NCBI RefSeq assembly: GCF_026151205.1
Contig: NC_087074.1
Coordinates: 16,441,962-16,505,961 of the forward strand
Direction: 5' to 3'
Source of the DNA: Bolinopsis microptera
Lineage: Eukaryota; Ctenophora; Tentaculata; Lobata; Bolinopsidae
Length of the DNA stretch: 64,000 bases
This document shows positions 5,673-50,805 of this stretch, one piece after another (the stretch's first letter is position 1; every line of letters begins with the position of its first letter). The position numbers were made by a program, and so were the translations under genes. The notes beneath the pieces were generated by a model. The model was given only the letters and a program-made list of their open reading frames with translations, had not been told where the DNA came from and made no database searches.

Positions 5673-6101
5673 AGAAATAATAATTTTTTTTATTTGAAAA
5701 TTCAATTAATCATTATATATATAAATCAAGCGTTACATTTCAGCCATGCAAAATTACAATGACATATTTTGATATACTAAATGATAAATGGTACTGCAAT
5801 ATAAGTTGCTTAATGTTTGGCCGGATGACAACTAACGAGAAAAATAAACTTGATTATATAATAATTAATTCGGCTGAACCAACACATAGCAAGAGCCACA
5901 TTAACGTTGGGGCCGTCTACCAAATTTGAATGACAAACATTAACAAGAAATCAAACATATCATAAATAATTATAAGGATTTTGTTCATTACAATTCCGTC
6001 ACAACTGATAAAGAAAAAAGAAAGGACAAGCAGATAGGAAATTGGACGGACAGAATTGTAACCAACAAAAACAAATTTCTGAGACTCATAAGACTGATGA
6101 A
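5673..6101 (-). other. 3' untranslated region of the CR1-like LINE
   Basis: This non-coding stretch follows the ORF2 stop and ends in an A-rich, ATT-repeating tail. The junction with the RLE LINE coding frame at about 5,672 is abrupt. Confidence 0.6.
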
Positions 6102-9100
6102 CTAATCTGGCCAGACTGTATCGGCAGCCCAGAGGTACTTGATCAGTTTGGCCTTAAAAGTAGAAATCCGCTCTGACTGCCGGATACATACTGGTAGACT
6201 ATTCCATTTCAGCATAGATCTATGAAAAAAGCTATTTCGGAAGGCATCCGAGCAGGGCACAGTGGTACTCATGTAAGTTGAAGTATCCGACATATCAATT
6301 ATTTGAGCATTGTGCCTAGTGTATCGGGTGCCCTCTGGACGGCATAGGACTATATATGTAGGGAGCGAAACTGGAATTATGCTATTCACTATTTTATAGA
6401 AGGTCATAAGATCGTTATAAATAAACTTCTGTTTAACAGGGAGAATATTTAGTTTCTTTTGCTCAGTAGCAAGTTTATCGTCATTATAACTGGAGTAAGG
6501 TTCACCATTGATCCATTTAATAGCCCTCTTTTGGATAGCAACAAACTGTTGAAGATGAGTTGCAGATTGAGGGGACCATATGACAGAACAATGTTCAAAT
6601 ATAGACCTAATTAACGCTAAATAGAACGATCTTTTCTGCCTTTTATCAGTAGTGAAATGACATGTTCTCTTAAGTAGTCCAAGTCTAGAGGTAGCTTTGG
6701 AAACAAGCGCTTTACATTGTGCACCCCAATTAAACCTGGAGTTTATTGCGACTCCTAAATCTGACTGAGAGGGCACCAAGTCAATATCACTTCCAGAAAG
6801 TTTATAAAAGAAGGTATTGAATGGCAAGTTATCCAGCACGTTTCTTTGCAGGGACACAGAGAGGGCTTTGCACTTTTGTGGGTGGAACTTCATTCGATTT
6901 CTCACTGACCAATCATATAATCTATTGATGTCATTTTGGATTATGTGATGGTCAGGGTAACCAAGAATCTCCCTCCAAATTTTAGTGTCATCTGCATAAA
7001 GGGCGATATTGGTGCCTTCAGAGACACAGGAGAACATGTCATTTATAAATATTACAAACAATAAAGGGCCAAGTATAGAACCTTGAGGGACACCAGACCG
7101 AACTGGTAGAGTAGAAGACGTTTGGCCTCCTATCACTACTTGTTGTTGTCGCCCCTCAAGATAGGACTTAATAAATTTAAGCATTAGTCCATCAACATTA
7201 AAAATATTCTTTAATTTACTTAAAATAAGGTCATGCGAAACGCTATCAAAAGCTTTCGCAAAATCAAAATATATTATATCAGTCCTGGACCTGTTATTCA
7301 GTGCAAGTGCAAGATTGTCCGTGAAAGGTATCATTTGGGTTGTGCATGAACGTTCATTAACAAAACCGTGTTGTCGGTCATCCAACAGATCAGAACATGC
7401 AGCGTATAATGCAGTCTTTATGCACCTTTCAAAGACTTTCATTACAAGAGATGTTAACGAGATAGGCCTGTAGTTCTCAACCGAAGACTTATCGCCCTTT
7501 TTGTGCACTGGTACTACAAGTGCCAGCTTCCAATCAGGGGGTATGCATCCGCTCGAGAAAGACAGGTTAAATAGAACACTAAGTGGGTATGCAAGGCTTT
7601 GGGCACAGTTTTTGAGGACTCTCCCATGAATCCCATCAGGGCCAGGGGCCTTGTTAGGATTTAACTTTTTAAGAATCAACAGAACATCTTCTCTACTAAA
7701 CACAAGACTTGAAAAACAATCATCACGAAAATCTATGTCAATGCCATAATCGCTCTCTTGAGAAAACTGCTCATAAAAATATTCGTTAAAAAGGGCAGCT
7801 TGATCAGATGGATTGTTTCGAAAGCGATTATGATATTTGACAGTTTCAGGGATCCTGGTTGACTTTGATTTAGATTTAACGTAGGTCCAGAATTTCTTGG
7901 AGATAAGAGCATCATCGGAGTCATCCTCAACACTGAGTCTCATTCTTTCGTCCATCAAATTTTTAAATTTTGTGCGAAATGCACGAAACTTTTGTTTATG
8001 AGACTCAGAGTTGCTCCCCTTATGCCTTATTCTCCATTTCTCCTTATTTCGTAGGAGACGATCACATTCGGAGTCATACCATGGGGGCTGGAACTGAGAC
8101 TTAATGGTCTTTTTAGGGATCCATCGGTCACAGGCTGCACCGAGAACTCCTCTGAATCGACTCCAGGCAAGATAAGGATCATTACTCTCAAATATACTAT
8201 CCCAATCGATGCTAAATAACTCAGAATTCAGGCCCCTAAAATTACCTTTACTATAATTAAAGATCTTTCTTTTAGGCTGCTTAATATACTTGGTCTTAAT
8301 ATCAATGTCAAATGTGATACAAAAGTGGTCGGACATACACATTTCGTTTTGATCTAAGACTTTAACATTCTTAATAAGGTTTTGAATGTTAGTGAACACA
8401 AGATCTAAGGTGTTGCCTGACTTGTGAGTAGGGGAGCTAATAAGTTGTGTATGTCCGAGGTCATCAGTGAGAAAATTTACAAAGCTAGAATGTAGCTGGC
8501 AAGATGACTGACCATCTGGCCAGGAAATCGAAGCCAAATTAAAGTCACCTACCAGAATGTGCCTTTGCAATTTTCTGGCAGATGCTAAAGTAACAAAATG
8601 TTTCTTGAAAGATTCAAAATTATCTAAGCCAAGCGTTCCTACTCTATAAAATGTTGATATACAAAAGTTTCTTCCACACTGAGTCTTAATTATGATGGAT
8701 AATAATTCAGCTTGAACACTAACTTTAGAGAACTTTAGACTCGAGATATCAATGTCTGTTCTATGGGCAATCAGAACACCACCACCGTTTTTTCTGAATT
8801 TCTTGGGCTGGGTTGCATCCACTGGATGCGATCTTAAGGATCGGTCAAGCCTAAATACTTTGTATTTGTCAGGGAGCACCTCATTACTGAGAATGGAATT
8901 TTTCAGCCATGTCTCGTTTAGAATAATGATGTGAGGCTTATGTTTGTAGATATAACCATGGAATTCATGTATCTTGGTCATATTTAGTGGTGGTGTTCCT
9001 GATGCTAAATCGCGTGTATTTAGGAAACCATGGACATTATTGTAAACAACGGATAGATTTGGTCCAGGATTCAGTAAGGAACAATTACAAATTACTATCA

Positions 9101-9365
9101 GGGAAATATTAAGGAGAGATAGAAAAACCAGACCACACCTAGACATGACCCCAAGCCAGCTGCTGGTAATACCGAAAAGTAACTTAACAGTCTGTTTCGG
9201 TGACATGGTAGGTGACAGTTCGGTTTTTGTGGTAGATAGCAATTTTACAGAAATTGCAGCTAAGGCTGTCCCAATGCCCCTCTCCCCCCTATACACAAGT
9301 TTAAAGTGTCTGAGAAAAATGGTACAAAATATTACCATAAAGTAAAGATTTATGGATGACCTCAA
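6102..9365 (-). CDS. CR1-like LINE ORF2: endonuclease-reverse transcriptase
   Basis: This is an uninterrupted 1,087-codon frame. Residues about 100-350 form an apurinic/apyrimidinic-type endonuclease that would nick target DNA: NNVHGF (109-114), NETW (150-153), GDFN (273-276) and SDH (345-347) supply the usual Asn, Glu, Asp-Asn and Asp-His catalytic positions. Residues about 555-800 form the reverse transcriptase, with NKAPGPDG, NYRPISL, DFAKAFD (701-707), a GVPQGSILGP block and the catalytic YADD (790-793). A C-terminal region of about 290 residues follows. The start at 9,365 is the first upstream ATG; hydrophobic residues precede the endonuclease, so a later start is possible. With no stop or frameshift this ORF could be recently active, although ORF1 of this copy is broken. 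It lies 438 bp downstream of the ORF1 stop. Confidence 0.88.
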   Translation of the reverse strand: MRSSINLYFMVIFCTIFLRHFKLVYRGERGIGTALAAISVKLLSTTKTELSPTMSPKQTVKLLFGITSSWLGVMSRCGLVFLSLLNISLIVICNCSLLNPGPNLSVVYNNVHGFLNTRDLASGTPPLNMTKIHEFHGYIYKHKPHIIILNETWLKNSILSNEVLPDKYKVFRLDRSLRSHPVDATQPKKFRKNGGGVLIAHRTDIDISSLKFSKVSVQAELLSIIIKTQCGRNFCISTFYRVGTLGLDNFESFKKHFVTLASARKLQRHILVGDFNLASISWPDGQSSCQLHSSFVNFLTDDLGHTQLISSPTHKSGNTLDLVFTNIQNLIKNVKVLDQNEMCMSDHFCITFDIDIKTKYIKQPKRKIFNYSKGNFRGLNSELFSIDWDSIFESNDPYLAWSRFRGVLGAACDRWIPKKTIKSQFQPPWYDSECDRLLRNKEKWRIRHKGSNSESHKQKFRAFRTKFKNLMDERMRLSVEDDSDDALISKKFWTYVKSKSKSTRIPETVKYHNRFRNNPSDQAALFNEYFYEQFSQESDYGIDIDFRDDCFSSLVFSREDVLLILKKLNPNKAPGPDGIHGRVLKNCAQSLAYPLSVLFNLSFSSGCIPPDWKLALVVPVHKKGDKSSVENYRPISLTSLVMKVFERCIKTALYAACSDLLDDRQHGFVNERSCTTQMIPFTDNLALALNNRSRTDIIYFDFAKAFDSVSHDLILSKLKNIFNVDGLMLKFIKSYLEGRQQQVVIGGQTSSTLPVRSGVPQGSILGPLLFVIFINDMFSCVSEGTNIALYADDTKIWREILGYPDHHIIQNDINRLYDWSVRNRMKFHPQKCKALSVSLQRNVLDNLPFNTFFYKLSGSDIDLVPSQSDLGVAINSRFNWGAQCKALVSKATSRLGLLKRTCHFTTDKRQKRSFYLALIRSIFEHCSVIWSPQSATHLQQFVAIQKRAIKWINGEPYSSYNDDKLATEQKKLNILPVKQKFIYNDLMTFYKIVNSIIPVSLPTYIVLCRPEGTRYTRHNAQIIDMSDTSTYMSTTVPCSDAFRNSFFHRSMLKWNSLPVCIRQSERISTFKAKLIKYLWAADTVWPD

Positions 9366-10438
9366 ACATGGTACAGAGTGTATTTAAGGTTGTAGGGGAG
9401 CACCAGGGAGTATATTAGCATCGATAGTCAAAGAAAATATATACAAAATAACATAAAAATAAAATATACCCAATAGAGCACATAACATATGACGAGACAG
9501 AAGACAGGACAACAAATTTTCCCCGTTACCTCTATTACTTTTACTGATGATAACATACCTAGAAAACATACCAGTTGCAACACGGTGTTGTTGAGCCGAT
9601 ATTCCCATGGAACTTTAAAGTATATTATTAACAGAATTGTGTCTCGCCGTTGTGTTTTGTTAGGTATTGTGCTATAATATGAAGTAACATACATTATGCT
9701 ATCACTTCGTTTGAATACATATAAATAACATCCAAATGATCAAATCCAATAGGATACTGATGCAGACAATGAAAAATTTAAATATTGAATTGAATTACCA
9801 CATCAGTATCCCAATGGATTAAACCACTTTGAGTGTATGATTCTGAGATAGAACTTTGCCAACACTGGCATCCCAGCCTTAGGGCTGGGATGAATATCAT
9901 AAAAGCCCCTAATGTCACATTTAGGAAATAATCTCTCGTTTCTGTTTCCATAGCGGTCTAAGAAAGCCCAAAAACATCAAGGTAAAACAGTTTATGCCTA
10001 GAGCAGCGATCAAAGATCAAATTATTCATAGCACAAACATTACCAGGGATTTTATCTTGTCCGTTGGGGTGGACTGGTGGAATAGCTTGTACAAAAACAC
10101 GTGCATTTGGATAAAGTTTTTTTGCTGTCTTCATAAGGTCACTCACAGGGGTCTCGAGATGATCGACACCCTGGGTACAGTACCGGATGTCGTTGGCACC
10201 GAAGCTTAAGAACAGTTTCTTTACCTGCACAAGAGGGTTCTTTGTATGAAAGGCCTCAATAGATTTCTGTATAGCTGATATCTTAAGCCCACCCTTAGCG
10301 ATGTTGGTGACAGTTTCTTTACCTCTACTGAGGCGATCTGCGTCCAATCGAGCAGCAAAGGAGTCACCAGCAATGAGAATGATAGACTTCTGGTGTTTTT
10401 GAGAGTCTGTGATGGGAGCTTTTGGGGATACTTTATTT

Positions 10439-10486
<48 letters not shown>

Positions 10487-10985
10487 GAGGAACCTGCCAA
10501 ACCCCAGGACACCAGGAGGATACCACCGGCAAAGCGGCTAATAGTACCCTCCGGTCTGTGTTGTACCGAAGAAGCTGAGTTAATCGATCAAGACTCGGCT
10601 TACCAGCCAAGAGGCAAAATCTGAGCGGCACCAAGGGTTCAGAGAGTGTCATTTCAGCTTCTCCGGTGCTGGATGCCCTGGGGTTTCACATGCGCCGTAG
10701 CAAAATAAATATAAAAACACACGCACACAATTTTTTTTATTCTTTTAGATAATACGTCGAATAAAGTCAGTGGATATAGAGTAATAAATAGCACATAAGA
10801 TGGAGAGAAAAAGGAGAGATACTACTGGTTTTAAATGTGACTCTATATCAATACTAGTAGTGGAGATAACTCCACTGGCTACAACTTGTGAAATAGAGGG
10901 TAAAGGTAAGGCACGGCTGTAATTTCGAGAGAATAAATAAACAAGAGTGTATAGTGGATCCAGTACTTTGGGTATAAAATGGTCA

Positions 10986-13900
10986 TCAAGGTATAACGTC
11001 TTTAAGGCACCGTATAATATCCGGTTTTTCACCTAATAAGAAAAGCTTAAGATGTTTAAGATATCGCTCCCAGAATAGGGGTTCCTTGTTCTGGAAACTC
11101 CTTCCAATAAACCAACAGCAAACCGAATTTATGAAGTTAACACTTTTATCTCTGTGATTTAAGCAAATCAAATAGTGGCGATATGGGTCGTCATAATTTG
11201 CGTCAATATTCGATCTAATAAACAGATTTACTCCCTGTAGGAAAGAGCTTGTGGCTGGACAGTCAATAAATATGTGAGAGATAGTTTCGAGGTTGTGATT
11301 ACATAACGAGCAATTTGGACTATCTTTTTCAATCTTCATTTTATATCTCATGTACCGACAAGTACTAATCCGGTGAAGGAGCTTATATTGGTACTGAATA
11401 AGTTTGAAGTTATTTGAGAAAGAAGTAAAAATATCCGTAAAAATACTAATCCAATCAATATCCGTTAAGGAGAGGTTAGCACTCCAGTTCCTCATTGGAG
11501 GAAGGGTGCTGGGATCTAAACGCTTAGACATGGTATCTCTAATGTTTCTACCTTTGATAGTGAGAGGAGTATCTCTAGAGTTGGGGGTATTCCTACCTCC
11601 CCAAAAGCGAAGTGAAAGTTGGGTATCGATAAATGTAATGTTACTTGTAAACGTATCGGTATTATTAAATCGACGTATTCCCAATTTTATACTCGCATAT
11701 TGAGTCGAAGAGATTATACTACTTGTTTGGCCCCACTTTCTCAGAAATTGCTGAAAACTTAAGAGGTTACCTTCCTCTGAAACGAAATCAGAAAGATAGA
11801 TGATATTTCTATCAATAAGAATATCGTTCCAGAGCTTGGAGCCAATGTCCGTTATTACGTCGCTTCCCCACACACAGTGGTTGACTGTACTCTTACTTGA
11901 CTGTGAAGAAATAGACTTCCAAAGCTTATAATGGCGAAGAAGGTTAAAGGTAAAACCAGTATTCTTTAATGTGAGACAGTTTTCTATACACACAGTTGGT
12001 ATATTTGGGTGTAAAAGCTGATTGATGATAATATTTTTCCAGGCATGTTGGAAATTAGGATCGATAACTTTTCCTATAAGTGACACTTTTAAACCTATAA
12101 TAAAATCGTTAGTATAGAAGAGACCTAGACCCCCACATTCACGAGGAGTCCCTTGTGTTAGTCCTCATCAACTAACACGCCTTGCTACTGCAAGAAGAGA
12201 CGACGGGTGGGGTGCCTAGTCTGAGCACGGCTTTCACAACCCCGCCCGCTCTGGGGTGGCTAGCCAGCAAACTGCAGGGATCACTCACTCCATCCCCCCT
12301 GTTGTTTCTGGACCCACTAGCAACCTCAGAGTGACCTCCACGTTGGTAAGGGATGGTAACTGCCCCTCATTGTCCGGCAGGCTAAACGTCGTCTGGCTGG
12401 ATCAGATCAAATACCAGCACATACCTGGCCTCTCTCCACTCCACCTCACTCACACAGGAGCCCGGCAAGCTCCTTTCCGCTACGGACAGTAGAATATTAA
12501 AACGACCCAACCATGGACAAATGGTACCTAAAACCCACAAATATGCCAAAACAGTACAATAGCTCGTCACATAAACAGAGAGAACGGCAACAGGGGTCTA
12601 CTGAAAACACGGAACGCGCGGACAAAGACATACATAGTAAAGAAAGCCACAAATTTATCACCAAACTGGTGCGCGCGCGACCAAACAAATCACGGCAAAA
12701 CAACAAACATCAAGCACAGTAAATATCGAGAAACACCTAGCGGAGCTGTTAGCCAGATAACAGTGGAAGTGGTAGTTTCTCGCATTATCAAACCCAATTT
12801 TCCGGGAGGCTGTTTCGACAGTTGACTTTCTATGGACTCAGAAAGTCCCCCGATGACGGAACATATGGCAGATACTTTTAGGGGTATCGCCGTTCCACCG
12901 GGTCATAACAGCAATGTTATGTCCATTTGGTTCGTGCCGGCTCAGCGAGTCCCCATCCCAGCCGAGCTTTCGGTACACCTCCGCAACCAAAGGAGCTCCA
13001 AGAGACGTTAGCCACAAGGCGGACGTAGCCTCCCCGCAAACCCGGGGAGGTAGAGTGAGCGCCCACCGACAAAAAAAAAAAAAAAAAAAAACATTCACGA
13101 GGAGAAGTAACAATATCACGTTTCAACTTATCCCTCTTACAACCCCACAAGAAGTGAAATATCATAGTGTCTATTTTACTGATGGTGTTAGTATCAGGAG
13201 TTTCTAGTGGTATGATAAGGTAAGTGAACTGGGAAAGAATAAGAGATTTAATAATTGTACACTTTCCTATCAGAGTTAAGTCTCTCTTACTCCAGGTGTT
13301 GATAGCGGAGCTGGCGTTACTAAGTTTACTGTGGTAGTTCATTTTGCAGAGATCAGCTCCACTAGACGTGTTGTCGAACTTGACTCCTAATGCTGTAAAC
13401 TCGTTAAGTCGTTAGCTACCATGTCTTCCCCGTATGTACTGGTAAGGTAATTTCGGAGACTAGTGTTGTCTCTGGTAGCTCCTAAAGGTATGCACTTAGT
13501 TTTACTGATGTTGGGCTTACAGCCTGAGTGCTGACCGAACAGGTTGAGCTCTAGGATAACTGCATCTACGCAAGCCTGGGAGGGATCCAGGTACAGATCC
13601 GTGTCATCAGCAAACAGACTCATGAGTATGTTGATACCATTAATGCTGAGGCCTTTAATATAAGGGTTATACTGTAGCTTATTACTAAGTACCTGGGACA
13701 CTAGGAGGAAAAGAATTGGGGAAAGGGGGCTCCCCTGATGGACGCCACGAAGTATGTGAACAGGGCTGCTAAGGTGTCCGTTAACGTTAGCGTAACTCAT
13801 ACCAGCGTGAAATGCCACTCTCACCAAGTTGATTAAATAATTTCCAAACCCCATACCTTCCAAGACACTGAAAAGAAACTTATGTTCGACCGAGTCGAAA

Positions 13901-15097
13901 GCCCGTTGGAGGTCGACCTGCATAATCATACCAGTATCCTCTTGGTTATCATGGTAATGTTCTAAGGTTAGATACATTAAGATCAGATTATCGCTGGTAC
14001 TCTTCCCTTTTTGAAACCCGGATTGGGCTGTACTAATAAGTGTTGGAAGTGAACTTAAGATCCTATTTTTTATAATATGAGTGAATATCTTATAGTCTAC
14101 ATTCAAAAGGGTGATTGGTCGCCAGTTCTTTATATAGTTTAACTCAATGGGGGTTTTAGGTTTCGGGATAAGTGTTATAATTCCTAGACGTTGTGAAGGT
14201 GACATAACCCCATTATCAACCGACTCTAAAAAGGAGTTAAATAGGATATTCTTAATGTCCTCCCAGAATACTTTGTAGAATTCAGCAGTGAGGCCGTCCC
14301 ACCCTGGAGATTTATTTTTCTTAAATTTACTGATAATACTATCCATCTCCAGGAGGGAAATTGGCCTATCTAACCTATCAGCGTTCTCCTGATCAATAGT
14401 ATCTAGGTTACTGGAATTAATATAATCGGTTATTTCATGCTCGTTTGGATTCGTAGAGCTAAAGATGTCCTGATAAAAGTTAACTACGTGCTCAGAAATA
14501 TCCTGCTGTGTGCGTAGTACACTCTGATCGCTGTTAATAAGTTTGGTAATAGACTTTTTTTTAGCTCTACTTTTCTCCAGCCCGAAGAAATATTTGGTGG
14601 ACCTTTCACCCTCCTCTGTCCACTGAATCCTAGACCTGGTCATGGCCCCGTTAACCTCAGCTTTAATGATACTATCAAGCTGGGATTCCAAGTCATACAA
14701 TTTTTTGCGCAGATCATCTTTCTGCATAAAATCAGTTATCTTTTTAACCTCTTCAATATCAGAGGATATTTTTTTCTTTTTTGCAACTTTTTCTTTCTTT
14801 TCTTTTTTTCCGAATCTGATCGCAAAATCTTTAATTTTCATTTTAATCACGTCCCAGAGTCCCGAGTACGAATCAAAATTACTGTCAGCAGTTTCATTGA
14901 TAATCTCCCGTACATTACTCAAAAACGACTCATTATTTAGATGGCTATTATTAAGTTTCCAATATCCTATTCCACGTTTAATGGGGGAACCCTGTAGAGA
15001 TAATGAAATGTAGCTGTGATCAGATCGAAAACCATGACTAATATCTGCGTTACAGACCGGATAATTAACCAGACTATCATCTATAAGGAAGAAATCT
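10986..15097 (-). pseudogene. L1/Tx1-like ORF2 remnant (EN tail, RT, zinc-knuckle)
   Basis: The frame opens with the last part of an endonuclease (an IDFFLIDD then RSDHSYI motif, equivalent to SDH). From 14,922 to 13,387 it gives the reverse transcriptase: WTEEGERSTKYFFGLE, KSPGWDGLTAEFYK, NWRPITLLNVDYKI, DLQRAFDSV, GVHQGSPLSPILF and FADDTD. A frameshift near 13,390-13,430 moves the frame into 13,342-13,105, where the poly(A) element interrupts it. It resumes from about 12,134 to 10,986 with WSANLSL and a CSLCNHNLETISHIFIDCP zinc-knuckle-like motif. GERSTKYFF and FADD are typical of the L1/Tx1 group. Truncation, frameshift and insertion show it is dead. Confidence 0.82.
12149..13090 (+). mobile_element. 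Poly(A) non-autonomous retroelement inserted in the L1
   Basis: The plus strand ends in a run of about 20 A (13,071-13,090) and is flanked by a perfect 14-bp duplication ACATTCACGAGGAG at 12,135-12,148 and 13,091-13,104. The 942-bp body is GC-richer than its surroundings and contains only short ORFs (12,256-12,492, 12,513-12,722, 12,914-13,207) with no recognised motif. It may be a SINE-like unit or the 5'-truncated end of another LINE. Confidence 0.85.
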
Positions 15098-16075
15098 ATA
15101 CTTTATTAGGACTGTCGGATGTAGGAGAGGGAAGAATAGGAGATGAAGGGGAAGAGGAAGGAGTGGTTAACTTTCTGAAGGAGAGACTATACCTCCAACA
15201 AATTTCATTGTCAGAAGGTGCAACTCCTGGGGCAATCCTGTGCCTCATGACTTGCTGTGCACCAGGCTTCATGATGTTCAGTGTGCCATTGGTGGCAGGA
15301 AGGGTGAAGTCTGCGTTAATCAACTCTTGGGCTGGCCTTGACCTAGAGGCCCTAGTTGTGCGTTGTTCTACTTGGGTTGTATCGAGCACAAACTCAAGTG
15401 ACCGTGGAGCCCCTATTGAGTAAGTGCAAATGGAGCTAGACTGTGATATTATTAGGTCTTCATCGTCTTTATGGAGGCTTAACTTAGCTTGCTGAGTGTC
15501 GTACCTAGTAACAAGGCAAGCATCCATGTTGTTTGTGGTGGAGGGGAGGTCATTAATAAGTCCCATCAACTTAAAGATGCTAGGGAAGTTGTTGATGGGA
15601 TGTGGCTTGTTAACTATGTTACCAAAGCAGTAGTCTTCTGATGAAGGGCTTAGCCATAGGGTGTGGACTTTTTTAGATTTGCCTTCAAGATTCATTGAAT
15701 CTAATTCTTCTGTGATTTTCATGAATAGATTTTCGTTCATCCCAGGGAGGACTGGAACGTGCTCTATGAGCGCATGTGGGCTATACGAGACATTTTGAAC
15801 AGTAGTTTCCTTCTTCGTTTTCTTTTCCTTCTTCTTTTCATCTATACGTTCTATTTTAGAAGCAAGCTTTTCCTCTTTCAGACTGTCCAGGATACTCTGA
15901 GTGAGGAGGGTATGCATGTGTTGCTTTACTTCAAGAGATAAGTTTTGCAGTAAGGCGAGGAAGTTGGCGGGCAGTGTTGGCATCTTGTTGTGAAGTGTGG
16001 GAGGATCGGGAGGAGACTGGGTGATCCGGATAAGAGATCAACAGCAGGATGTTTCAGTGGCACCGTTGTAAACCC

Positions 16076-18592
16076 TAGCAATCTGGACATAGAACTACTC
16101 AGACATAGAACTACTGGAGATTCGAGGTACTCTTCCACCTAGTGTAGTGGAAGAGGCTCCAACAACAACAACTCAAGCTCTACCCACAGTCTCCCAAGCA
16201 ATCAGGACGTTGAGGGATGCAACTATCCCAACTGTTGCTGCCGAAGAACTCAACCCCACCGCAACGGTACCTGATTTTGACAAGGAGGCAATCATTGAGC
16301 GGCTAAAAACCCTCTTAGAAGACCCTTCAGTGATAGAAACCAAGCCCCTGAGACATGTGAACAGAAAGAAGCTTATGGAGGAAACATCTCTCATCAACTC
16401 ATGTATAGCAGAGATTCCTACTTCTTCAATCACTGAAACCAACACTCTATTGCTTGCAGGAGCACATTTAGTCAGCGAAAGACAACCGGATTGCAGATCA
16501 ACTTATGAATTGCCTAACCAACGCTGATATCCCAGACTGGATGACATTGGGACGCACGTACCTGCTCATAAAAGACCACTCCAAAGGACCCATCCCAGGC
16601 AATTTCAGACCTATTACATGCTTATCAGCTATGTGGAAACTGTTCACTGGTCTAATCTCAGATTCCATATACAACCATTTAGACCAGCAAAAACTCCTCC
16701 CCCCTGAGCAGAAAGGGTGCAAGAAAAAGAGCAGAGGATGTAAAGAACAGTTAATGATAGACAAACTCATTCTATAGAACTGTAAACGAAGGAAGCGGAA
16801 CCTGAACATGACGTTTATAGACTACAAGAAGGCGTATGATAGCGTCCCACACTCTTGGATTCTGTCTTGTTTGACCATGTGTGGTATCTCTTCATCCATC
16901 ATAGATCTGTTTGAAGCCTCCTTCAAACAATCGTATGTTAACCTGATGCTTGGTAAAGTTTCCCTTGGGAGAATTAAAATTAATAGAGGTCTATTCCAAG
17001 GAGACTCAGTATCACCTATTCACTTTATCATTAGTCTTATACCCCTGTCCATTCTTTTGAATAAGCATGACATAGGATACTCTCTGGAGAAGGGAGGTCG
17101 ACCGAAAGTGTCACATAGGCTTTACATGGACGACCTCAAGTTGTATGCCGAGAGTGAAGACGAAATGCAAACACTGGTTAATACCACAGCAGAGTTCAGC
17201 AGTGACATAAAAATGGAATTCGGGCTAGAGAAATGTGCCGTGGTGAAGGTGAAGAAGGGAGCAAGAGCCGTTTTCGAAGGCATCTCCCTACCCACAGGTG
17301 AACAGATCCATGAGTTAGAGGACGAGGGCTATAAGTATCTGGGAATACTAGAAGCCAATGATATACTGCACAAAGAGATGAAAGCACTGGTTACAAAAGA
17401 GTATATCAGAAGAGTTAAAAAGGTTTTAAAATCCCAGCTTCATGGCTGGAATAGTATACAAGCAATTAACACCTGGGCTGTACCTGTGATAAGATATGGA
17501 GCTGGAATTCTCTCATGGAATGCTGGAGAGACCAAAGCCTTAGATGTCAAGACCCGGAAACTGATGAGGATAAATGGAGCTCACCACCCCCAAGGAGATG
17601 TTGATCGGTTATACGTAAGCCGTCAACTGGGTGGCCGTGGGCTACATAGTATAGAGGAAGTCGTAAAGAGAGAGGAGAATGCACTCACCACTTATGTGGT
17701 GAGAAGTAGAGACCCAGAACTGATTGCTCTGAAGGACTACTTTGTCAAAGACAAGATACTCTTGGGTGAAGAGATAGAGAAAGATATCGACCGAACACAA
17801 CGCGAGGAAATCCGCAAGGAGAAGTGGACTGCTAAAGTGATGCACGGACAGTTCCCAAGGCAGATGGTGGGTATAGCGGACCCGTTAACCTCTTGGAACT
17901 GGCTCACTCAACAAGACTTGAAGAAGGAGACAGAAGGATTGTTGATAGCAGCCCAAGACCAAGCACTTAGGACGAATTATGTGAAGCACAGGATTGACAA
18001 AACACCTGGCTCTTCTCCCCTCTGCAGACTCTGCAGAAATCATTACGAGACAATAGACCACATACTGAATGGGTGCCCAAAACTTTCACAGACAGAATAT
18101 AAGTGTCGGCATGACAAAGTAGCTGCCGCATTGCACTGGAGTCTGTGCAAGGAATACGGCTTCCCACGCAGTAAAAGGTGGTACGAACACCGGGCAGAGA
18201 AGGTGCTGGAGAACGAAAAAGTCAAGATATTGTGGGACTTCCATGTCCAGTCGGACCACGTTATCGAACACTGCAGACCGGATCTCCTCCTGGTAGACAA
18301 GGTAACCAACGCAGCAACCATCATTGACGTTGCAATCCCAGGAGATACCCGGATCCTGGATAGAGAACAAGAAAAGATACTGAAATATCAAGACCTAAAA
18401 AGAGAAATTAAGAAGAACTGGAATTTACGAAAGGTCACAATCGTCCCTGTGGTGATAGGCGCATTAGGAACTATCACCATTAACTTTCGTAAACACCTCG
18501 ACGCAGTCCACTGCAATCTGAGCATCTCTAATCTCCAGAAGACAGCTCTGCTTGGATCAGCCAGAATTCTCAGGATGGTCTTAGACATATGA
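16076..18592 (+). pseudogene. RLE LINE ORF: reverse transcriptase and restriction-like endonuclease, broken
   Basis: Coding resumes near 16,076 with NLDIELLEIRGTLPP-type sequence, disturbed by a 16-bp duplication. It runs to about 16,480, where a frame change and probable deletion remove the region before the reverse transcriptase. From 16,505 it continues with GPIPGNFRPITCLS. A TAG at 16,775-16,777 interrupts the frame, and from 16,808 it carries FIDYKKAYDSVPH, GLFQGDSVSPIHF and the catalytic YMDDLKLYAES. A CRLCRNHYETIDHILNGCP zinc knuckle lies near 18,025-18,080. The C-terminus has a restriction-like endonuclease signature, HCRPDLLLVD followed by IIDVAIP, and ends SARILRMVLDI. These features place it with site-preferring RLE LINEs (R2/R4 superclade). 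Confidence 0.8.
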
Positions 18593-29438: not shown

Positions 29439-36404
<6,966 letters not shown>

Positions 36405-38741: not shown

Positions 38742-40945
38742 TCATCGAGGCGTACCAAACGGCGCCGACAAGAACGAACTTAACTTACTAGCACTACTGC
38801 TAGACTGTGTGTTATACTTCCTGTACAAGAAATAGTTCTGTCTTATTTTGCTTTGCAGCTGATTTATGATGAAAGTTATCTTGCGGTGAATGTGGTCACC
38901 CTTTGAGGGGGCTTCGAAAATGTAATCTTTCGGGTCTTGATTATCGTTCAGGTAAATTAGTTTAAGTTTCAATCGGTCACCGCTGAATCTGTCAACCAAA
39001 ATCTCAGAAGAGATCAAATTTTTGCAAGGAATGCTCTCTGCTTTCAGCTTAAAAGGCGGCAGAGGTGATTTTGTAAGCGGGTCAATCTCGATCTTATCCC
39101 CTGAAATACCCAACTGAACATCAATTTTCTTTTTAATAACCCTTGCCTCGATCTGAACCACAAACACCTCGTAGTTAAGGGACTCAAAGCGACTGTACCC
39201 CATCACCGTGTCAGCCTCCATCTCTACCTGACTAGTTCTCTTGGAATGAGTCCTCACCAGCCTGAATTCTAACGTGTTCATGTCCTCCAGGAAACCCTCT
39301 AATTTCACAGAATCCCCCGGAGAGGTAAGTTTTTCTAGAACATATTTCCCGCTCATTCGAGCTAAGTTTTTCTCGTCTCGTTGGCTGCTCTGCTCGTTAT
39401 ACACCCCTGAAGTTGCCCTGAACTGAGTTCTTTTCTTCACAGCACGTGTAAAAATATCCTTCATTTTCACTTTCGTGTTCCGGAAATGGAAGGTGGTGTG
39501 AGTCTTATCATCGAAATGTATCTTCACAATGATCTTCTCGTCCTTATCCTCCTTATAAAGGGCCAACTCAAGCGCTCCATACCCAAAATGATAAGAGTAA
39601 TACTTCTTTATAAGGTCACGTGATGCTAACGGTTGGAACATCAGAATATCGTCATCGTCATCATCATCTGTCTGAAGATGCCTCAAACAGTAATCATCAA
39701 CAGTGCCCCCCAACTGAGGTTGCCTCCCCTCGGTACAATACTGAAAGAGGATCAGACCTATAGCTTCATCTACTGTGGCCGCTGATATCACATTCATATC
39801 AATAGTGTCCTCAGGGTTCTTAGCCATGGTTAGAGTCACTCTCAGTTTAATTGTGTGTGAAGATTTTTGAGCGTCGAACTTAACGTACTTTACAAACGGA
39901 TTTTTAACGTTTTTAGTTTTAGCCATGAGAAGAGAAAAGGAAGAAGAGCGCCCCTTGGTGGAAGGTGCACTGTTGAAGGGTACGGGTTTGAAGACCGTAT
40001 CCGCGTCAATATTCTTGCTAACTTTACTGGTGTCTAGAGAAACTACCTGCGTCTGACTCACGTTGGAAGTGTTGCGAGCCACTGCCCTCTGAAATAGTAG
40101 GAAAGAACATTAACTAGATTGCTTAAATAGAGAAGTTAATTGTTTCCCCGTATTTCATGCATACATACTGATCATATTAACAAAGTTTCCAGAACATAAT
40201 GAAGCGTGATGTAGCTTACGTGTTTCTGTGTGCGCACGTCTTCATTAGCTACGAACATATCGTAACTGCCAAACGGCTGCGGGTTCTGAAACCTTTCAGA
40301 GGACCGTATTGAGCTGAGTCTCCTCGTCCATTTCCGGTTAGAGAGTGTGTCCTCTGTCTGTGTGTCCAACACCTGTCAAGGATGTTATTTAGTGTGTAAC
40401 CGTGTTATTATGTTATTACATCGTACCTGAGTCTTGGGAGAGATTCCAGTGGAATTATACTACTACTGCTAGTACTACTATTTGATAAAAGGTACAAGGC
40501 AGCGCATAGCACATAGTCCGACACCGTGCCTCATGCACATATTGTGCTAGGGTGCCAACTTGGCACTGTGCCAAGTGCTTTAAAAATATTAGAGTGTCAA
40601 ACTGTAGTTAATTGCACATTCGGAACATGAAGACTTGTAGACAGTTGCATTTTTCAAACATGTTGGTGAAAATTCCTTTTCCATCCATCAACAAACGCCA
40701 GTCGACGCACTAAAAACCTCTAGGTAATTTTGTATGGCTTTTCATGGCTAGAAGTGCGATGTACCCATACTATTCTGTATTCTTATATTTATATTTGCAC
40801 TCTTTTACACAAAATCCAGATAAGATAAACATTTAAGTAAGTGCGTTGTCATAGTTACCATTTCAGAAACAAGACTCGTATCATTCGTTACAAATACATT
40901 CTTTATATGTCTTTGAAGGAGATCAAAATCATCGAGTAGTGCCAT
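38742..40945 (-). CDS. MAPKAP1: SIN1/MAPKAP1, TORC2 subunit
   Basis: SIN1 is an essential scaffold of TOR complex 2; its CRIM domain presents AGC kinases such as AKT. Three exons, all joined in phase 0: 40,945-40,859, 40,372-40,220 and 40,088-38,742, giving 528 aa (human 522). Exon 1 starts MALLDDFDLLQRHI, the usual SIN1 N-terminus. The CRIM domain begins near residue 143 (NPFVKYVKFD), with ILFQYCTEGRQPQL and an Asp-rich loop at about 219-227. A Ras-binding-like domain lies at about 265-360. A PH domain begins near residue 404 (VQLGISGDKIEIDPLT), the best-conserved segment. The family is known to bind Ras and phosphoinositides. No break is seen. An acceptor-like ATTACAG lies 2 nt upstream of the ATG, so a 5' leader exon or trans-splicing is likely. 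Confidence 0.94.
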
Positions 40946-41828: not shown

Positions 41829-42140
41829 ATGATCAAGTTACAATATAATATCTTCTAACCAAGTTACAATATAATATCTTCTAACCAAGTTACAATATAA
41901 TATCTTATAACCAAGTTACAATATAATATCTTATAACCATGTTACAATATAATATCTTCTAACCAAGTTACAATATAATATCTTATAACCAAGTTACAAT
42001 ATAATATCTTATAACCAAGTTACAATATAATATCTTATAACCAAGTTACATATAATATCTTATAACCAAGTTACAATATAATATCTTATAACCAAGTTAC
42101 AATATAATATCTTATAACCAAGTTACGATATAATATCTTA
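41829..42140. repeat. 26-bp minisatellite, block 1
   Basis: About 12 copies of AACCAAGTTACAATATAATATCTTAT with CTTCT and CTTAT variants. It is separated from block 2 by 230 bp of non-repeat sequence (42,141-42,370). Confidence 0.95.
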
Positions 42141-42370
42141 TAATGATTCTTCGGAATTTCGCTGGATTGTACAACTTTCGTCTTGGTAGATTCCAAACAC
42201 AAGGAAATTTTTCCTTTGGTTGGTAATATACTCAATGATGGAAGTATAGTGTATTGGCTATGCCCCGCTTACTAGTTTAGCTCTTTCTAGTCCCCTGCTA
42301 CACGGCATGTAAACAGGGATTGGCTAGTTAGAGGCGGTCCGTGTAGGCCTTACACTGTGCTTTCAGCAAT

Positions 42371-42826
42371 ACTCATAACCAAGTTACATATAATATCTTA
42401 TAACCAAGTTACAATATATTATCTTATAACCAAGTTACAATATAATATCTTATAACCAAGTTACAATATAATATCTTATAACCAAGTTACAATATAATAT
42501 CTTATAACCAAGTTACAATATAATATCTTATAACCAAGTTACAATATAATATCTTATAACCAAGTTACAATATAATATCTTATAACCAAGTTACAATATA
42601 ATATCTTATAACCAAGTTACATATAATATCTTATAACCAAGTTAGAATATAATATCTTATAACCAAGTTACAATATAATATCTTATAACCAAGTTACAAT
42701 ATAATATCTTATAACCAAGTTACAATATAATATCTTATAACCAAGTTACAATATAATATCTTATAACCAAGTTACAATATAATATCTTATAACCAAGTTA
42801 CAATACAATATCTTATAACCAAGTCC
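42371..42826. repeat. 26-bp minisatellite, block 2
   Basis: About 17 copies of the same unit, ending 5 bp before the ATG of the GIY-YIG ORF. Some units have lost one or two bases. Confidence 0.95.
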
Positions 42827-42831
42827 TTGGC

Positions 42832-43614
42832 ATGGAAAGAGTGTTAGTCAGGAAGAGTACGGTCGAGCCTAATGAACAATCCCCGCTATCAGCCATACCA
42901 ATCAGAGTCATCTCCAGTTATGGAAGTGACAATGACTTGGTGAATGTTGTCCAGAAATACGAAGGTCACTTGAGACGAACTCGTAGTTTTAGTGAAAGTG
43001 AGAGTCAGCAAGCCACAAACTCCACCACAGCACCGAAAGGAAAAAATAAACTGTTTCAGTTTGTGAAGAAAACGGGATCTACGCTCAGATCTCGCCTCGT
43101 TACATCTAAACAGCTTGCCTTAGGTGCTAAACATGGTAAAACTGAACCCTGTCACAGAAGAAACTGCAAGTGTTGTAAAATGATCATGAGTAAGGACTCC
43201 ATCACATCAAATGGCAAAAAGATCAAATCAGCCCCTGGTTGTTGCAAGACCTATAACATCATCTACCTTGTACAGTGTTCGATTTGTAAGAAAAACTATG
43301 TGGGTAGGACTATTAATAGCTTGCATAAAAGGATGGACGCGGACGGACACAGGTCCAAATTTTATGAAATCGTTGATGGTAGAGCATTTGATATTACTAG
43401 TGATGAGTATAGCCTAGGAGTTCACTTGATTGACCACGGTTTAGGAGTACATACAGATTTTAATGAAACTTTTAGAACTTTTATTTTAGAGAATTGCAGT
43501 CCCAGTGCACTTGAAGTAAAAGAAAATAACTACATACATTTGCTTAATTCTCTTAGACCTTTTGGCCTTAATACTGTCAATCCCTTTGGATTACCTATAT
43601 TCCATAAACCTTAA
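42832..43614 (+). CDS. GIY-YIG endonuclease-like protein (Penelope-type) inside a minisatellite
   Basis: A 260-codon intronless frame. Residues 1-100 are Ser-rich and basic with no known domain. Residues about 100-260 hold a cysteine cluster (CHRRNCKCC) and a GIY-YIG-like core: YNIIYLVQC, CSICKKNYVGRT (the paired motif), LHKRM, and a downstream ENNYIHLLNSL-type segment. This resembles the Cys-containing endonuclease of Penelope-like elements without reverse transcriptase. It is not the copy at 31,728-32,801, which is clearly different in sequence. The frame is intact and opposite in strand to its neighbours. It is enclosed by the 26-bp array on both sides, which suggests that array and ORF moved or expanded as one unit. 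Alternatively it is a domesticated host gene. Confidence 0.72.
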   Translation: MERVLVRKSTVEPNEQSPLSAIPIRVISSYGSDNDLVNVVQKYEGHLRRTRSFSESESQQATNSTTAPKGKNKLFQFVKKTGSTLRSRLVTSKQLALGAKHGKTEPCHRRNCKCCKMIMSKDSITSNGKKIKSAPGCCKTYNIIYLVQCSICKKNYVGRTINSLHKRMDADGHRSKFYEIVDGRAFDITSDEYSLGVHLIDHGLGVHTDFNETFRTFILENCSPSALEVKENNYIHLLNSLRPFGLNTVNPFGLPIFHKP

Positions 43615-43946: not shown

Positions 43947-44684
43947 TCACTGATTACCCCCGCCACACAGCACCAGCACATAAGAGAACAGCATTATGAT
44001 ATCCACGTACAAGTTGAGTGCAGCAAACACATACTCCTCCGGATCCAGCTGCACTGTTTTACCTGACATCATTATCTGTGTGTCCACCACTATGTATATA
44101 CTGATCAGACAGGCTCCTAGGGTAGCGTACACTAGGTAGAGTACTCTGGAGTGGAGGAGCACCACCAAGATTACAAATACCAGGAGGGAGATGCTCACAC
44201 AGAACAGAATTCCTGTTAGAATTGTGAAGTCGTACTTTGTCTGGAACGCGAATATGGTGAGTGCGATGACGATGCCAAGAGTAGTTGCTATGGCGACGAG
44301 GACGATGAATGGTTTAGAGTAGCTAGCTGTGATACCCAGAGCGAATGAGAATATAAGAGTCATTACAACCAGGAATATAGCGTTCTGAGGGTAAGATCTC
44401 CTCAGAGACTCATTACATATCAGAACTATCATGAGGACAATAGCTGATAACCACAGAACTACAAACACTAACAGAGCCACTCTGGTCTGGCCCCAGGTTC
44501 TCAACACAGGTATTGTGGTGAAGGCTATGATAACAGTGAATGTTAACGTTAACATGGCTATAAGGATAGCATATACCTTGCGGATAAAGCCCCTCCTGAC
44601 ACTTTGGTCATCAAAAGCAGTTGAGGCACCGGAGATAACCAAGTTACTCTCCTCATCGTAGTGTCCCCCCTGCAACTGTGTCAT
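43947..44684 (-). CDS. Lifeguard/TMBIM family membrane protein
   Basis: An intronless 245-codon frame for a seven-pass protein of the Bax-inhibitor-1/Lifeguard (LFG, FAIM2/GRINA-like) family. These proteins sit in ER or Golgi membranes, influence calcium leak and protect against cell death. Visible family marks are the short acidic N-terminus, VRRGFIRKVYAILIAMLTLT at the first membrane segment, and the C-terminal DTQIMMSGKTVQLDPEEYVFAALNLYVDI with its conserved acidic residues. Seven hydrophobic stretches can be counted. Family members usually have a longer N-terminus and introns; the lack of introns could indicate a retrocopy, though the frame is intact. The subfamily is not decided. The stop is almost in contact with the minisatellite. 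Confidence 0.92.
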   Translation of the reverse strand: MTQLQGGHYDEESNLVISGASTAFDDQSVRRGFIRKVYAILIAMLTLTFTVIIAFTTIPVLRTWGQTRVALLVFVVLWLSAIVLMIVLICNESLRRSYPQNAIFLVVMTLIFSFALGITASYSKPFIVLVAIATTLGIVIALTIFAFQTKYDFTILTGILFCVSISLLVFVILVVLLHSRVLYLVYATLGACLISIYIVVDTQIMMSGKTVQLDPEEYVFAALNLYVDIIMLFSYVLVLCGGGNQ

Positions 44685-44963
44685 GTGGTCATGTGTGGAA
44701 CATGTGTGGGACTAGCTTAGGGGGAGGGAGTATTGTTAGAATGTCAACATTGTTAGAATGTTAACTATGTTAGAATGTTAACTATGTTATCGTTAGAATG
44801 TTAACATTGTTATCGTTAGAATGTTAACAACTTTAAGAAAAGGACGAAGGCGGCAATACTGTTGAATAACTTTTCAAATGTTTCAAGTTTGAATTTTGAC
44901 AACAATTGGAACAGTTCCTGATAAACAAAGAATAAGTATTTTGATAAATTGTTGAGTTTCACT

Positions 44964-49200: not shown

Positions 49201-50805
49201 TCTGCTGGGATCCGTTTAAGCCCCCCCCCCCCCCCCCCCTCTTATAAGCCCCCGGCCCCTATAGGATTAGTACACTAGGTTTAAGCCCCCACCCCCCCCC
49301 CCCCCCCCCAGGATTAGTACACTAAATTTAAGCTCCCCCTGCCCCCTTCCATATAATATTAGTACACTAAGTTAAAGCCCCCCCCCCTTTCCCTATAAGA
49401 TTAGTACACTAAGTTAAAGCCCCCGGCCCCTATAGGATTAGTACACTAAGTTAAAGCCCCCCCCCCCCCCCCCCTATAGGATTAGTACACTATGTTAAAA
49501 CCTCCCCCCCTATAGGATTAGTAAGAAGTAGTGACTAACCTTGTGAAGGTCGTCCAGTGTGAAGTTAGCCCTGATACTCCAACCCTCTTGTGCTTCATTG
49601 AGAACGAGAGGCAAAGGGAACTTCTTACTGTTAAATATACCTGAGAAATACCATGATCACGTGACCCGGGATTTAGAAGTTAAAAGATAACAATAGATAA
49701 TAAGTTATTTTAAATGCTTGTGTAGCAGCTGTTCTCAATGATGTATTTTACAAAACTTACCATTGTAAGAGGAAGCATAAGAATGCTGTGTATTTTACAA
49801 AACTTACCATTGTAAGAGGAAGCTGTGTATTTTACAAAACTTACCAGTGTAAGAGGAAGCTGTGTATTTTACAAAACTTACCAGTGTAAGAGGAAGCTGT
49901 GTATTTTACAAAACTCACCAGTGTAAGAGGAAGCTGTGTATTTTACAAAACTTACCAGTGTAAGAGGAAGCTGTGTATTTTACTAAACTTACCAGTGTAA
50001 GAGGAAGCTGTGTATTTTACAAAACTCACCAGTGTAAGAGGAAGCTGTGTATTTTACAAAACTTACCAGTGTAAGAGGAAGCTGTGTATTTTACTAAACT
50101 TACCAGTGTAAGAGGAAGCATAAGAAAATGTAAGTTCTCTGGCAGCGTTCTCACAATCAATCTCTGGAGCATCATTAGGGTGAGTGAAGAAGTAGTAAGG
50201 GTTGTCAAGGTAACACTCTCGATTGAATAACACATTCCAATCAAACCAACCAAGACACTGAAAAACTTGTCATTAAATACTTATGTCAATTATATCTTTA
50301 AACTTATAATTTAAAATACACCCTATCCAACGACACCCTATCCAACAACAGATTGAAACTTCAAGCAACAACTCACACTAAGCTGCCAGTGTCTCAGCAG
50401 GGCAGACATCTCAAACTGCCAGGGCTGATAATCCTGGTACCCCCTCCTGGCCCTGAACTCGTTCACCACCACGAACCCCAACAAGCCCAACACCACCACC
50501 AACACCACCACTCTCAGCTTGTTCCTCCTCAGCAGCTCTATTGTTCTCTGTATAGTGTCTAGGATAATGGTCTCCAGAGGGATGTCCTGAGCTAGGAACA
50601 GGGAGATCAGTTCGTCCTGGCGGTCACGTGATATTCCGGATAACTCAGATTGTTGGAGGAAATCTTCAAATCCTTCCTTTGTGTATACTAGTTCAGGTGG
50701 GGAGTTGTTGGTGTTACCAGCGTTACCAGCGTTACCAGCGTTACCAGGGTTACCAGCTAGGCTGTCCTCAGGTTCATCATCAGAGGTAGTATATGGCTCT
50801 GACAT
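46255..50805 (-). CDS. Unrecognised single-pass type II membrane protein
   Basis: Seven minus-strand exons with consistent phases: 50,805-50,377, 50,257-50,104, 49,640-49,540, 47,709-47,558, 47,321-47,177, 46,998-46,848 and 46,346-46,255, giving 407 aa. Residues 1-95 are acidic and cytosolic-looking with a NAG repeat (about 20-31) and helical segments. Residues about 97-114 form one membrane span (VVVLVVVLGLLGFVVV). The rest is extracellular or lumenal, with cysteines in pairs-like spacing (CLGWFDWNVLFNREC, DNPYYFFTHP, YPCVNYMG, DCSRDPLRALIDG) and a C-terminal beta-rich part ending TNFKVKP. I do not recognise the family. Intron 3 contains a nested plus-strand gene. Intron 2 starts with a minisatellite that repeats the splice donor. 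An acceptor-like ATTAACTATAG lies 12 nt upstream of the ATG. Confidence 0.82.
46604..46821. mobile_element. Tigger/pogo-like MITE
   Basis: The ends CAGTAAAACCTCGATTTACC and GGTAAATCAGGGTTTCACTG are flanked by TA on both sides (46,602-46,603 and 46,822-46,823). Internal GCAGTAAATCGGGGCGCGGT units are tandemly repeated near the right end. It sits in intron 6 of the membrane-protein gene, 27 bp from exon 6. Confidence 0.85.
47347..47412. repeat. (CATTATAA)n microsatellite
   Basis: About eight units lie in intron 4 of the membrane-protein gene, close to the exon 5 acceptor. Confidence 0.9.
48363..49078 (+). CDS. Nested secreted Cys- and Pro/Thr-rich protein
   Basis: Two exons, 48,363-48,543 and 48,687-49,078 (GT-AG, phase 1), encode 190 aa. 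Residues 1-17 (MKLFCLILLVCLSGVSS) form a good signal peptide. The mature N-terminal part contains CAC and CC cysteine motifs and two further cysteines in exon 2, suggesting a small disulphide domain. From about residue 95 to the end it is a Pro/Thr tract made of PPAPTT repeats, a mucin-like region likely to carry O-glycans. The gene lies wholly in intron 3 of the membrane-protein gene on the opposite strand. The start lies 2 nt after an acceptor-like TTTGTTAG. Function is unknown; a matrix, mucus or cuticle component would fit. Confidence 0.72.
49220..49530. repeat. C-rich minisatellite (TATAGGATTAGTACACTAAGTTAAAGCCCC)
   Basis: About six units of 45-55 bp have poly(C) runs of varying length. 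They lie between the nested gene's 3' end and exon 3 of the host gene. Confidence 0.9.
49740..50120 (-). repeat. 37-bp minisatellite carrying exon end and 5' splice site
   Basis: About ten copies of a unit that reads, on the minus strand, CTTCCTCTTACACTG followed by GTAAGTTTTGTAAAATACACAG. The first copy on that strand is the real end of exon 2 (Y-T-G) and its donor at 50,103. Each later copy repeats 15 nt of exon plus the donor within intron 2. Unit length is not a multiple of three. Confidence 0.92.

Follow-up and report, generated by a model that had tools for sequence, protein, structure and literature searches.

The 64,000-nucleotide stretch of the ctenophore Bolinopsis microptera analysed here (assembly GCF_026151205.1, contig NC_087074.1, positions 16,441,962 to 16,505,961 of the forward strand; hereafter the window) carries a copy of a long interspersed nuclear element (LINE), or non-long-terminal-repeat (non-LTR) retrotransposon, in which the first open reading frame (ORF1) fuses an AlkB-type dioxygenase to an SGNH hydrolase. 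Comparison with other copies in the genome makes it practically certain that the two domains share one ORF1 of a mobile LINE, with a second frame (ORF2) for an endonuclease (EN) and a reverse transcriptase (RT) downstream. The element is a LINE by its EN-RT ORF2, its 5′-truncated copies, their common 5′ end and a poly(A) end. LINE ORF1 proteins (ORF1p) are poorly understood, and a nucleic-acid-modifying enzyme in one of them is not described in the literature examined. As an overall explanation we favour, with some confidence, a LINE whose ORF1p would use its AlkB domain to clear methyl lesions that block reverse transcription.

Anatomy of the interrupted copy and its intact relatives

The copy in the window lies on the minus strand and is a dead, 5′-truncated, L1-interrupted non-LTR retrotransposon. 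What remains of its 5′ untranslated part spans 15984–16087(−), and most other copies stop aligning at 16087. The first part of ORF1 (15098–15983(−), residues 1–295) encodes a helix-like, Lys-rich N-terminal segment followed by the AlkB-type 2-oxoglutarate (2OG)-Fe(II) oxygenase domain at 15174–15611(−); the Pfam family PF13532 (2OG-FeII_Oxy_2) is found in the window frame 16037–15096(−) at E 3.3e-10 and 40.9 bits, the cut-off being 31.2. ORF1 is then broken by a nested L1-like LINE (10438–15097(−)) with RVT_1 and zf-RVT domains and a poly(A), flanked by two copies of the target-site duplication ATACTTTATT at 15098–15107 and 10428–10437. The second part of ORF1 (9803–10427(−)) comprises a linker and the SGNH hydrolase, with a PF13472 (Lipase_GDSL_2) match at 9967–10350(−) in the frame 10437–9958(−) (E 5.7e-8). 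Downstream, ORF2 (6102–9614(−)) encodes an endonuclease of the APE (apurinic/apyrimidinic endonuclease) type and an RT (Exo_endo_phos_2, 2.7e-11; RVT_1, 4.3e-30), with domain matches at 8316–8654(−) for PF14529 and 6855–7505(−) for PF00078; one stop codon at 9384–9386 splits it into pieces of 76 and 1093 amino acids. The 3′ untranslated part occupies 5684–6101(−), and in the copy at locus L033 a long poly(A) tail comes after the same end. A search around the window copy showed no target-site duplication of more than 7 bp.

A sequence-only reading of this DNA had proposed that excision of the L1 restores a single LINE ORF1 joining AlkB to SGNH, and the continuity of the frame across the 10-bp duplication bears this out. 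The frame exits ORF1 at the first duplication (...SPNKV) and the same frame re-enters at the second (NKVSPKAP...), so that the insert divides one ORF and leaves its frame unchanged. The catalytic residues named in that reading are likewise present: H171, D173, H248, R264 and R270 in the AlkB part, which do not vary among 12 aligned ORF1s counted from a shared Met, and GDS, GAND and a terminal D-I-H in the SGNH part. The slip in a T run that it had noted maps near 9975, where a single-base length difference relative to the copy at L002 breaks the SGNH frame.

The genome searched throughout was the window's own assembly (264,652,675 bases in 232 contigs). A six-frame search with the AlkB half of the window copy gave at least 130 matches (133 of 568 candidates scored), and most genome matches sit on 13 contigs of 15.2–26.2 Mb, which suggests 13 chromosomes, the number that the available text of PMC11184263 gives for the ctenophores Beroe ovata and Hormiphora. 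The best 19 other loci (L002–L020) are 96–99% identical to the query. In 17 of these 19, ORF1 is a single open frame of 503–508 amino acids running from the shared Met to the SGNH C-terminus, the exceptions being an in-frame stop in L012 and a broken frame in L014. The start of ORF2 follows in 16 of the 17 intact copies and is absent in L018, as judged from frames of at least 200 amino acids. When the ORF2 protein was used as the query, with 42 of 6949 candidates scored, every match listed belonged to the family of the window copy (family A). Apart from the window copy, 25 ORF2 copies start at query residue 1, and 15 of them are open over 1170–1185 amino acids.

With the window copy added to these 25, 21 of the 26 have AlkB on the same strand no more than 8 kb upstream, a count that rests on 37 listed AlkB matches out of the at least 130. 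Two of the five copies lacking AlkB were inspected. The element sequence of L051 starts with the last AlkB codons, and the 700 bases in front of them contain none of the element; that of L052 starts in the SGNH C-terminus after 738 unrelated bases. Both start points are consistent with 5′ truncation. At the other extreme, L010 begins 253 bp ahead of its ATG, and all nine copies compared with it begin at the same base (ten copies in all). The upstream AlkB in most ORF2 copies, the common 5′ terminus and the poly(A) end together place AlkB inside the mobile unit.

Diversity of AlkB-bearing ORF1 types

Besides family A, 13 more ORF1 types in the genome carry AlkB, with 21–51% identity to family A in that domain, and an SGNH match accompanies it in 12 of the 13. 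The order of short N-terminal part, AlkB, linker and SGNH is kept in families B, C, E, F, H and J, at 26–48% identity to A over the whole ORF1. EN and RT follow on the same strand in all of these families, as detected by Pfam in A, F and J and by tblastn in B, C, E and H. A genome search with PF13532 itself gave at least 151 matches (150 of 587 candidates scored), and among those listed most lie in open frames of 350–900 amino acids. Thirteen were inspected, namely seven in long ORFs (L041, L042, L043, L044, L048, L049, L050), three of Helitron type (L036–L038) and three that are host-like (L045–L047). The long-ORF loci represent the types K, K2, M, N, N2, O and Q, for which the sequence examined reached as far as EN. 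Pfam identifies SGNH in six of the seven, several below the curated cut-off, and in L043 only a GDS-type block I was picked up, by motif. An endonuclease domain after ORF1 was likewise found by Pfam in six of the seven (K, K2, M, N, O and Q), while in N2 split EN-like frames were recognized by eye (L055, downstream of L048).

At the N-terminus, beside the helix-like, Lys-rich segment of family A, stretches that look coiled-coil-like by eye occur in K, N and O. L043 has a weak PHD-finger match at the ORF1 N-terminus (E 0.0065), a similar Cys-rich finger is visible in L048, and Cys-rich fingers also stand at the start of ORF2 in L043, L048 and L054. Families E and F (L025 versus L028) are 96% identical in RT and 90% in EN and only 81–83% in the ORF1 domains, which may reflect faster evolution of ORF1 or its exchange.

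In the SGNH domain, G316, S318, G372, N374 and H475 are invariant in the 12 aligned ORF1s, which cover families A, B, C, E, F, H and J. The position two residues before the block V His is Asp in A, B, C and H and Gly in E and F, and the spacing D-x-x-H is found in J, K, K2, M and N2; D-x-x-H represents the acidic residue before the block V His of SGNH hydrolases. A profile of the 12 ORF1s matches SGNH esterases, with the Protein Data Bank (PDB) entry 6njc at 2.7e-10 followed by the esterase of the ZfL2-1 ORF1, 4c1b, at 9.3e-8.

The Helitron-type loci L036, L037 and L038, on contigs C9 and C12, contain open frames of 2225, 3226 and 2459 amino acids. AlkB lies upstream of DUF6570 and Helitron_like_N in all three, and L037 also has an N-terminal SGNH match, as does L038 with a score under the cut-off. 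Both domains therefore recur, in a different order, in an unrelated class of transposon. Searches of IMG/VR and GTDB genomes found no relative, and tblastn against phages yielded AlkB matches no better than E 0.05, all of them weak.

In a tree of 20 AlkB domains the seven short-ORF families fall together (support 99/97), as do the Helitrons (98/97). E and F are grouped by both the AlkB and the SGNH tree (starred), the latter built without L049. The AlkB tree further groups A, B and C (93/99, not starred), and the RT tree groups A with C (starred). Most deeper forks are open in the AlkB, SGNH and RT trees, so co-inheritance of the domains is not proved for every family.

Putative function of the AlkB domain

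In the mechanism that we propose, ORF1p would begin with a helix-like segment, continue with an AlkB dioxygenase of the ALKBH2/3 type and, after a variable linker, end in an SGNH hydrolase; it would coat the element RNA. Its AlkB domain, like ALKBH3, would oxidatively remove methyl lesions of the Watson–Crick face, 1-methyladenosine (m1A) and 3-methylcytidine (m3C), from the RNA template, possibly acting on single-stranded complementary DNA (cDNA) too, and this would unblock the element's own RT. The SGNH domain would tie the ribonucleoprotein (RNP) to membranes or lipids, an anchoring proposed for ZfL2-1 in the excerpts of PMC3905857 that were available. As far as the accessible part of PMC7968990 reports, AlkB removes m1A and m3C, and in transfer RNA (tRNA) sequencing it lifts the block to RT that tRNA modifications often impose. 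Judged from sequence, the AlkB domain is likely to be catalytically active, and nucleic-acid demethylation is probably the function for which it has been selected in ORF1p. Unblocking of RT as the specific role is possible and is put forward with reserve. The suggestion of the sequence-only reading that AlkB protects or edits the element's own RNA or RNP appears plausible.

The motifs HxD.E and S.G..R, the distal His and R-x5-R are kept in all 14 LINE types and in all three Helitron frames, the domains having been excised by means of a motif pattern common to all 20 rows. At E 0.01, PF13532 is matched by 13 of the 14 excised domains. A profile of the 14 LINE AlkBs finds ALKBH3 in the PDB at 1.1e-31, ALKBH2 at 8e-23, Escherichia coli AlkB at 2e-8 and ALKBH8 at 1e-5. 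In single-sequence PDB searches the AlkB half of the window copy found no AlkB entry, and neither did the whole ORF1 of L002, which reached 4c1b only at E 0.51. The ALKBH3 and ALKBH2 matches share HxD, the distal His and R-x5-R with the LINE domains; they differ in that the LINE AlkBs have R-x-S in place of R-x-N in the last motif, are fused to SGNH and are mobile. The host genes are present as well, L045 being ALKBH2 (E 4.5e-58) and L047 ALKBH3 (E 6.8e-40) by best PDB match, and L046 ALKBH3-like by eye.

This affinity bears on two other readings of a demethylase. The domain might erase a regulatory mark, N6-methyladenosine (m6A) in the element RNA or N6-methyladenine (6mA) in DNA, that the host uses for finding or silencing the element. 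Such a role has a parallel in the AlkB-family protein of an orchid Ty3/Gypsy element, which, according to the available portion of PMC9289625, binds RNA and demethylates m6A in vitro and for which a similar role is proposed; TET/JBP dioxygenases in fungal DNA transposons are also read as countering host silencing in the part of PMC12730594 consulted. However, the LINE profile is closest to ALKBH3 and ALKBH2; its 36 PDB matches at E 0.01 include none named ALKBH5 or FTO, and those named DNA N6-methyl adenine demethylase reach only 9e-4 to 5e-3. We consider mark erasure rather unlikely. A second possibility is general, ALKBH2/3-like protection of element cDNA or host DNA from alkylation during integration, with the RNA template left aside. 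The nearest solved relatives and the presence of host genes of both types agree with it, as does the AlkB of Helitrons, which move as DNA. Set against this, the domain is located in ORF1, the expected RNA binder, and not in ORF2, and DNA protection is judged unlikely.

Returning to template repair by an active demethylase, most comparisons of the ratio of nonsynonymous to synonymous substitution rates (dN/dS) point to purifying selection on AlkB. Between two subfamilies of A, over 17 copies with L012, L014 and the interrupted window copy left out, dN/dS is 0.18 for AlkB and 0.18 for SGNH. Pairwise values, for which more distant pairs were saturated and the mis-started L026 frame was left out, are 0.16–0.17 for the N-terminal part plus AlkB and 0.10 for SGNH between E-type copies and F, and 0.10 and 0.15 for the N-terminal part plus AlkB in two single pairs of A.

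Several observations weigh against a conserved, active AlkB–SGNH protein. Within the subfamilies of A, dN/dS is higher for AlkB (0.35) than for SGNH (0.15), and for the N-terminal part plus AlkB it approaches 1 in very close pairs, with 0.91 for E/E2 (13 changes) and 0.93 for J (9 changes); decaying copies would give such values, and relaxed constraint may be the alternative. Whole-ORF1 scans at E 0.1 detect PF13532 in only three of seven families (E, F and H) and not in A, B, C or J, a shortfall ascribed, without proof, to the speed filters of HMMER; with the AlkB half scanned alone, A and B do match (about 40 bits) and J still does not. SGNH block I begins in an altered form, GTS in J and ISSS in K, K2 and M, with the Ser kept, and no pattern match for block I was found in Q in a motif count that covered the types other than O. 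The split between element and host ALKBH2/3 domains in the AlkB tree is moderately supported (90/95, not starred), and the AlkB of L049 sits on a long branch with the host ALKBH2/3. The position of E. coli AlkB N120 is occupied by T, S, I or L in families A–J, the window's lineage included, and that of N206 by S in each of the 17 AlkBs from elements. Both Asn are secondary 2OG contacts and are not taken here as defining AlkB.

Replacement of these secondary contacts would also fit an AlkB fold that serves ORF1p as a nucleic-acid-binding module, coating RNA or single-stranded DNA, with catalysis incidental. In the excerpts of PMC3905857, SGNH-type ORF1ps are without a known structured RNA-binding domain, a gap that the fold would fill. 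The iron triad and both Arg of R-x5-R are nevertheless invariant over the 14 types, which is more than binding seems to need, and a pure binding role is quite unlikely.

The grouping of L049 with host genes and the interrupted, repeat-rich state of the window copy could both be taken to favour a host AlkB exon or gene that came to lie beside an SGNH ORF by chance, in the window copy only. This explanation is vanishingly improbable: it is refuted by the 17 uninterrupted copies elsewhere, the 14 ORF1 types and the fixed 5′ end that encloses AlkB. The two outcomes that the sequence-only reading had set as tests of itself did not occur. AlkB and SGNH do not belong to separate ORFs or elements, and two abutting ORFs are ruled out by the single frame of the intact copies; nor is AlkB a host exon captured once and only here. 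Chance homology is ruled out by the Pfam and PDB profile E-values.

Known relatives and neighbouring features

An ORF1 with SGNH hydrolase upstream of an APE-RT ORF2 is shared with ZfL2-1 and the CR1/L2 LINEs, whose ORF1 is classed as type IV, and the esterase ORF1 agrees with a CR1/L2-type element. CR1/L2 elements end in a short microsatellite rather than poly(A). The sole clearly tailed 3′ end found here, that in L033, carries poly(A), and the AlkB-bearing LINE is therefore not filed as CR1 or L2. The excerpts of PMC4120745 and PMC3905857 describe type IV ORF1s as having an esterase, sometimes with a coiled coil or a zinc finger/leucine zipper, mention no AlkB domain in the types described, and, in the 2014 survey, confine type IV to vertebrate groups; the ORF1 types listed in the accessible part of that survey are RRM, CCHC, PHD, Tnp22 and esterase (PMC4120745).

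Other mobile elements carry one or the other domain. The orchid Ty3/Gypsy element is a retrotransposon with an AlkB-family demethylase; it differs in being an LTR element of a plant with the AlkB in a separate additional ORF, named ALKBH5-like, and no SGNH is described in the available text of PMC9289625. The TET/JBP enzymes of fungal DNA transposons are transposon-encoded 2OG-Fe(II) dioxygenases of another family. Plant RNA viruses of the Alpha- and Betaflexiviridae and Closteroviridae are mobile RNA replicons with an AlkB of their own, which, unlike that of the LINE, lies within the viral replicase polyprotein of a replicon that does not reverse transcribe. An RNA repair role has been postulated for these viral domains, as cited in the accessible part of PMC9289625. 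SGNH is common to unrelated retroelements, including the bdelloid LTR and Penelope-like elements with a GDSL ORF3 (PMC5408684), a source from which the words 2OG and dioxygenase are absent.

A search of the open-access literature, Repbase not included, on AlkB or dioxygenases together with retroelements found no AlkB in a LINE, and the titles and abstracts on ctenophores or Helitrons with AlkB held none such. The earlier remark that no described precedent for this arrangement was known agrees with that result, and as far as the searched literature reaches, the fusion is a new ORF1 architecture in a known kind of element. A broader and more tentative picture is that a radiation of animal LINEs, plus Helitrons, might encode an ALKBH3-type demethylase, template repair by ORF1p enabling full-length target-primed reverse transcription. 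If true, template repair would mark a functionally new class of LINE ORF1 and imply a host–transposon arms race over Watson–Crick-face methylation. An active AlkB would make these elements a system for examining if methylation damage to RNA restricts retrotransposition and if early-branching animals use methylation as a host defence. It may also provide RNP-tethered demethylases of natural origin for making full-length cDNA from modified RNA.

The surroundings of the window copy contain further repeats and genes. The nested L1-like element holds an additional insert at about 12.15–13.10 kb, a poly(A)-ended piece of about 0.93 kb (12148–13100) apparently flanked, by eye, by repeated CATTCACGAGGAG. 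A different RT element on the plus strand (16093–18592; RVT_1 3.8e-20) adjoins the 5′ end of the AlkB-bearing LINE. By eye, the ORFs at 31728–32831(−) and 42793–43614(+) resemble pieces of a Penelope-type GIY-YIG or RT, with no Pfam match at 1e-3. The genes include SIN1 (MAPKAP1) at 38742–40109(−), whose domains are CRIM, Ras-binding and PH, and one of the Bax-inhibitor type at 43947–44711(−). Tandem arrays occupy 41834–42824 (26 bp period), 49785–50119 (37 bp) and 52582–52991 (24 bp).

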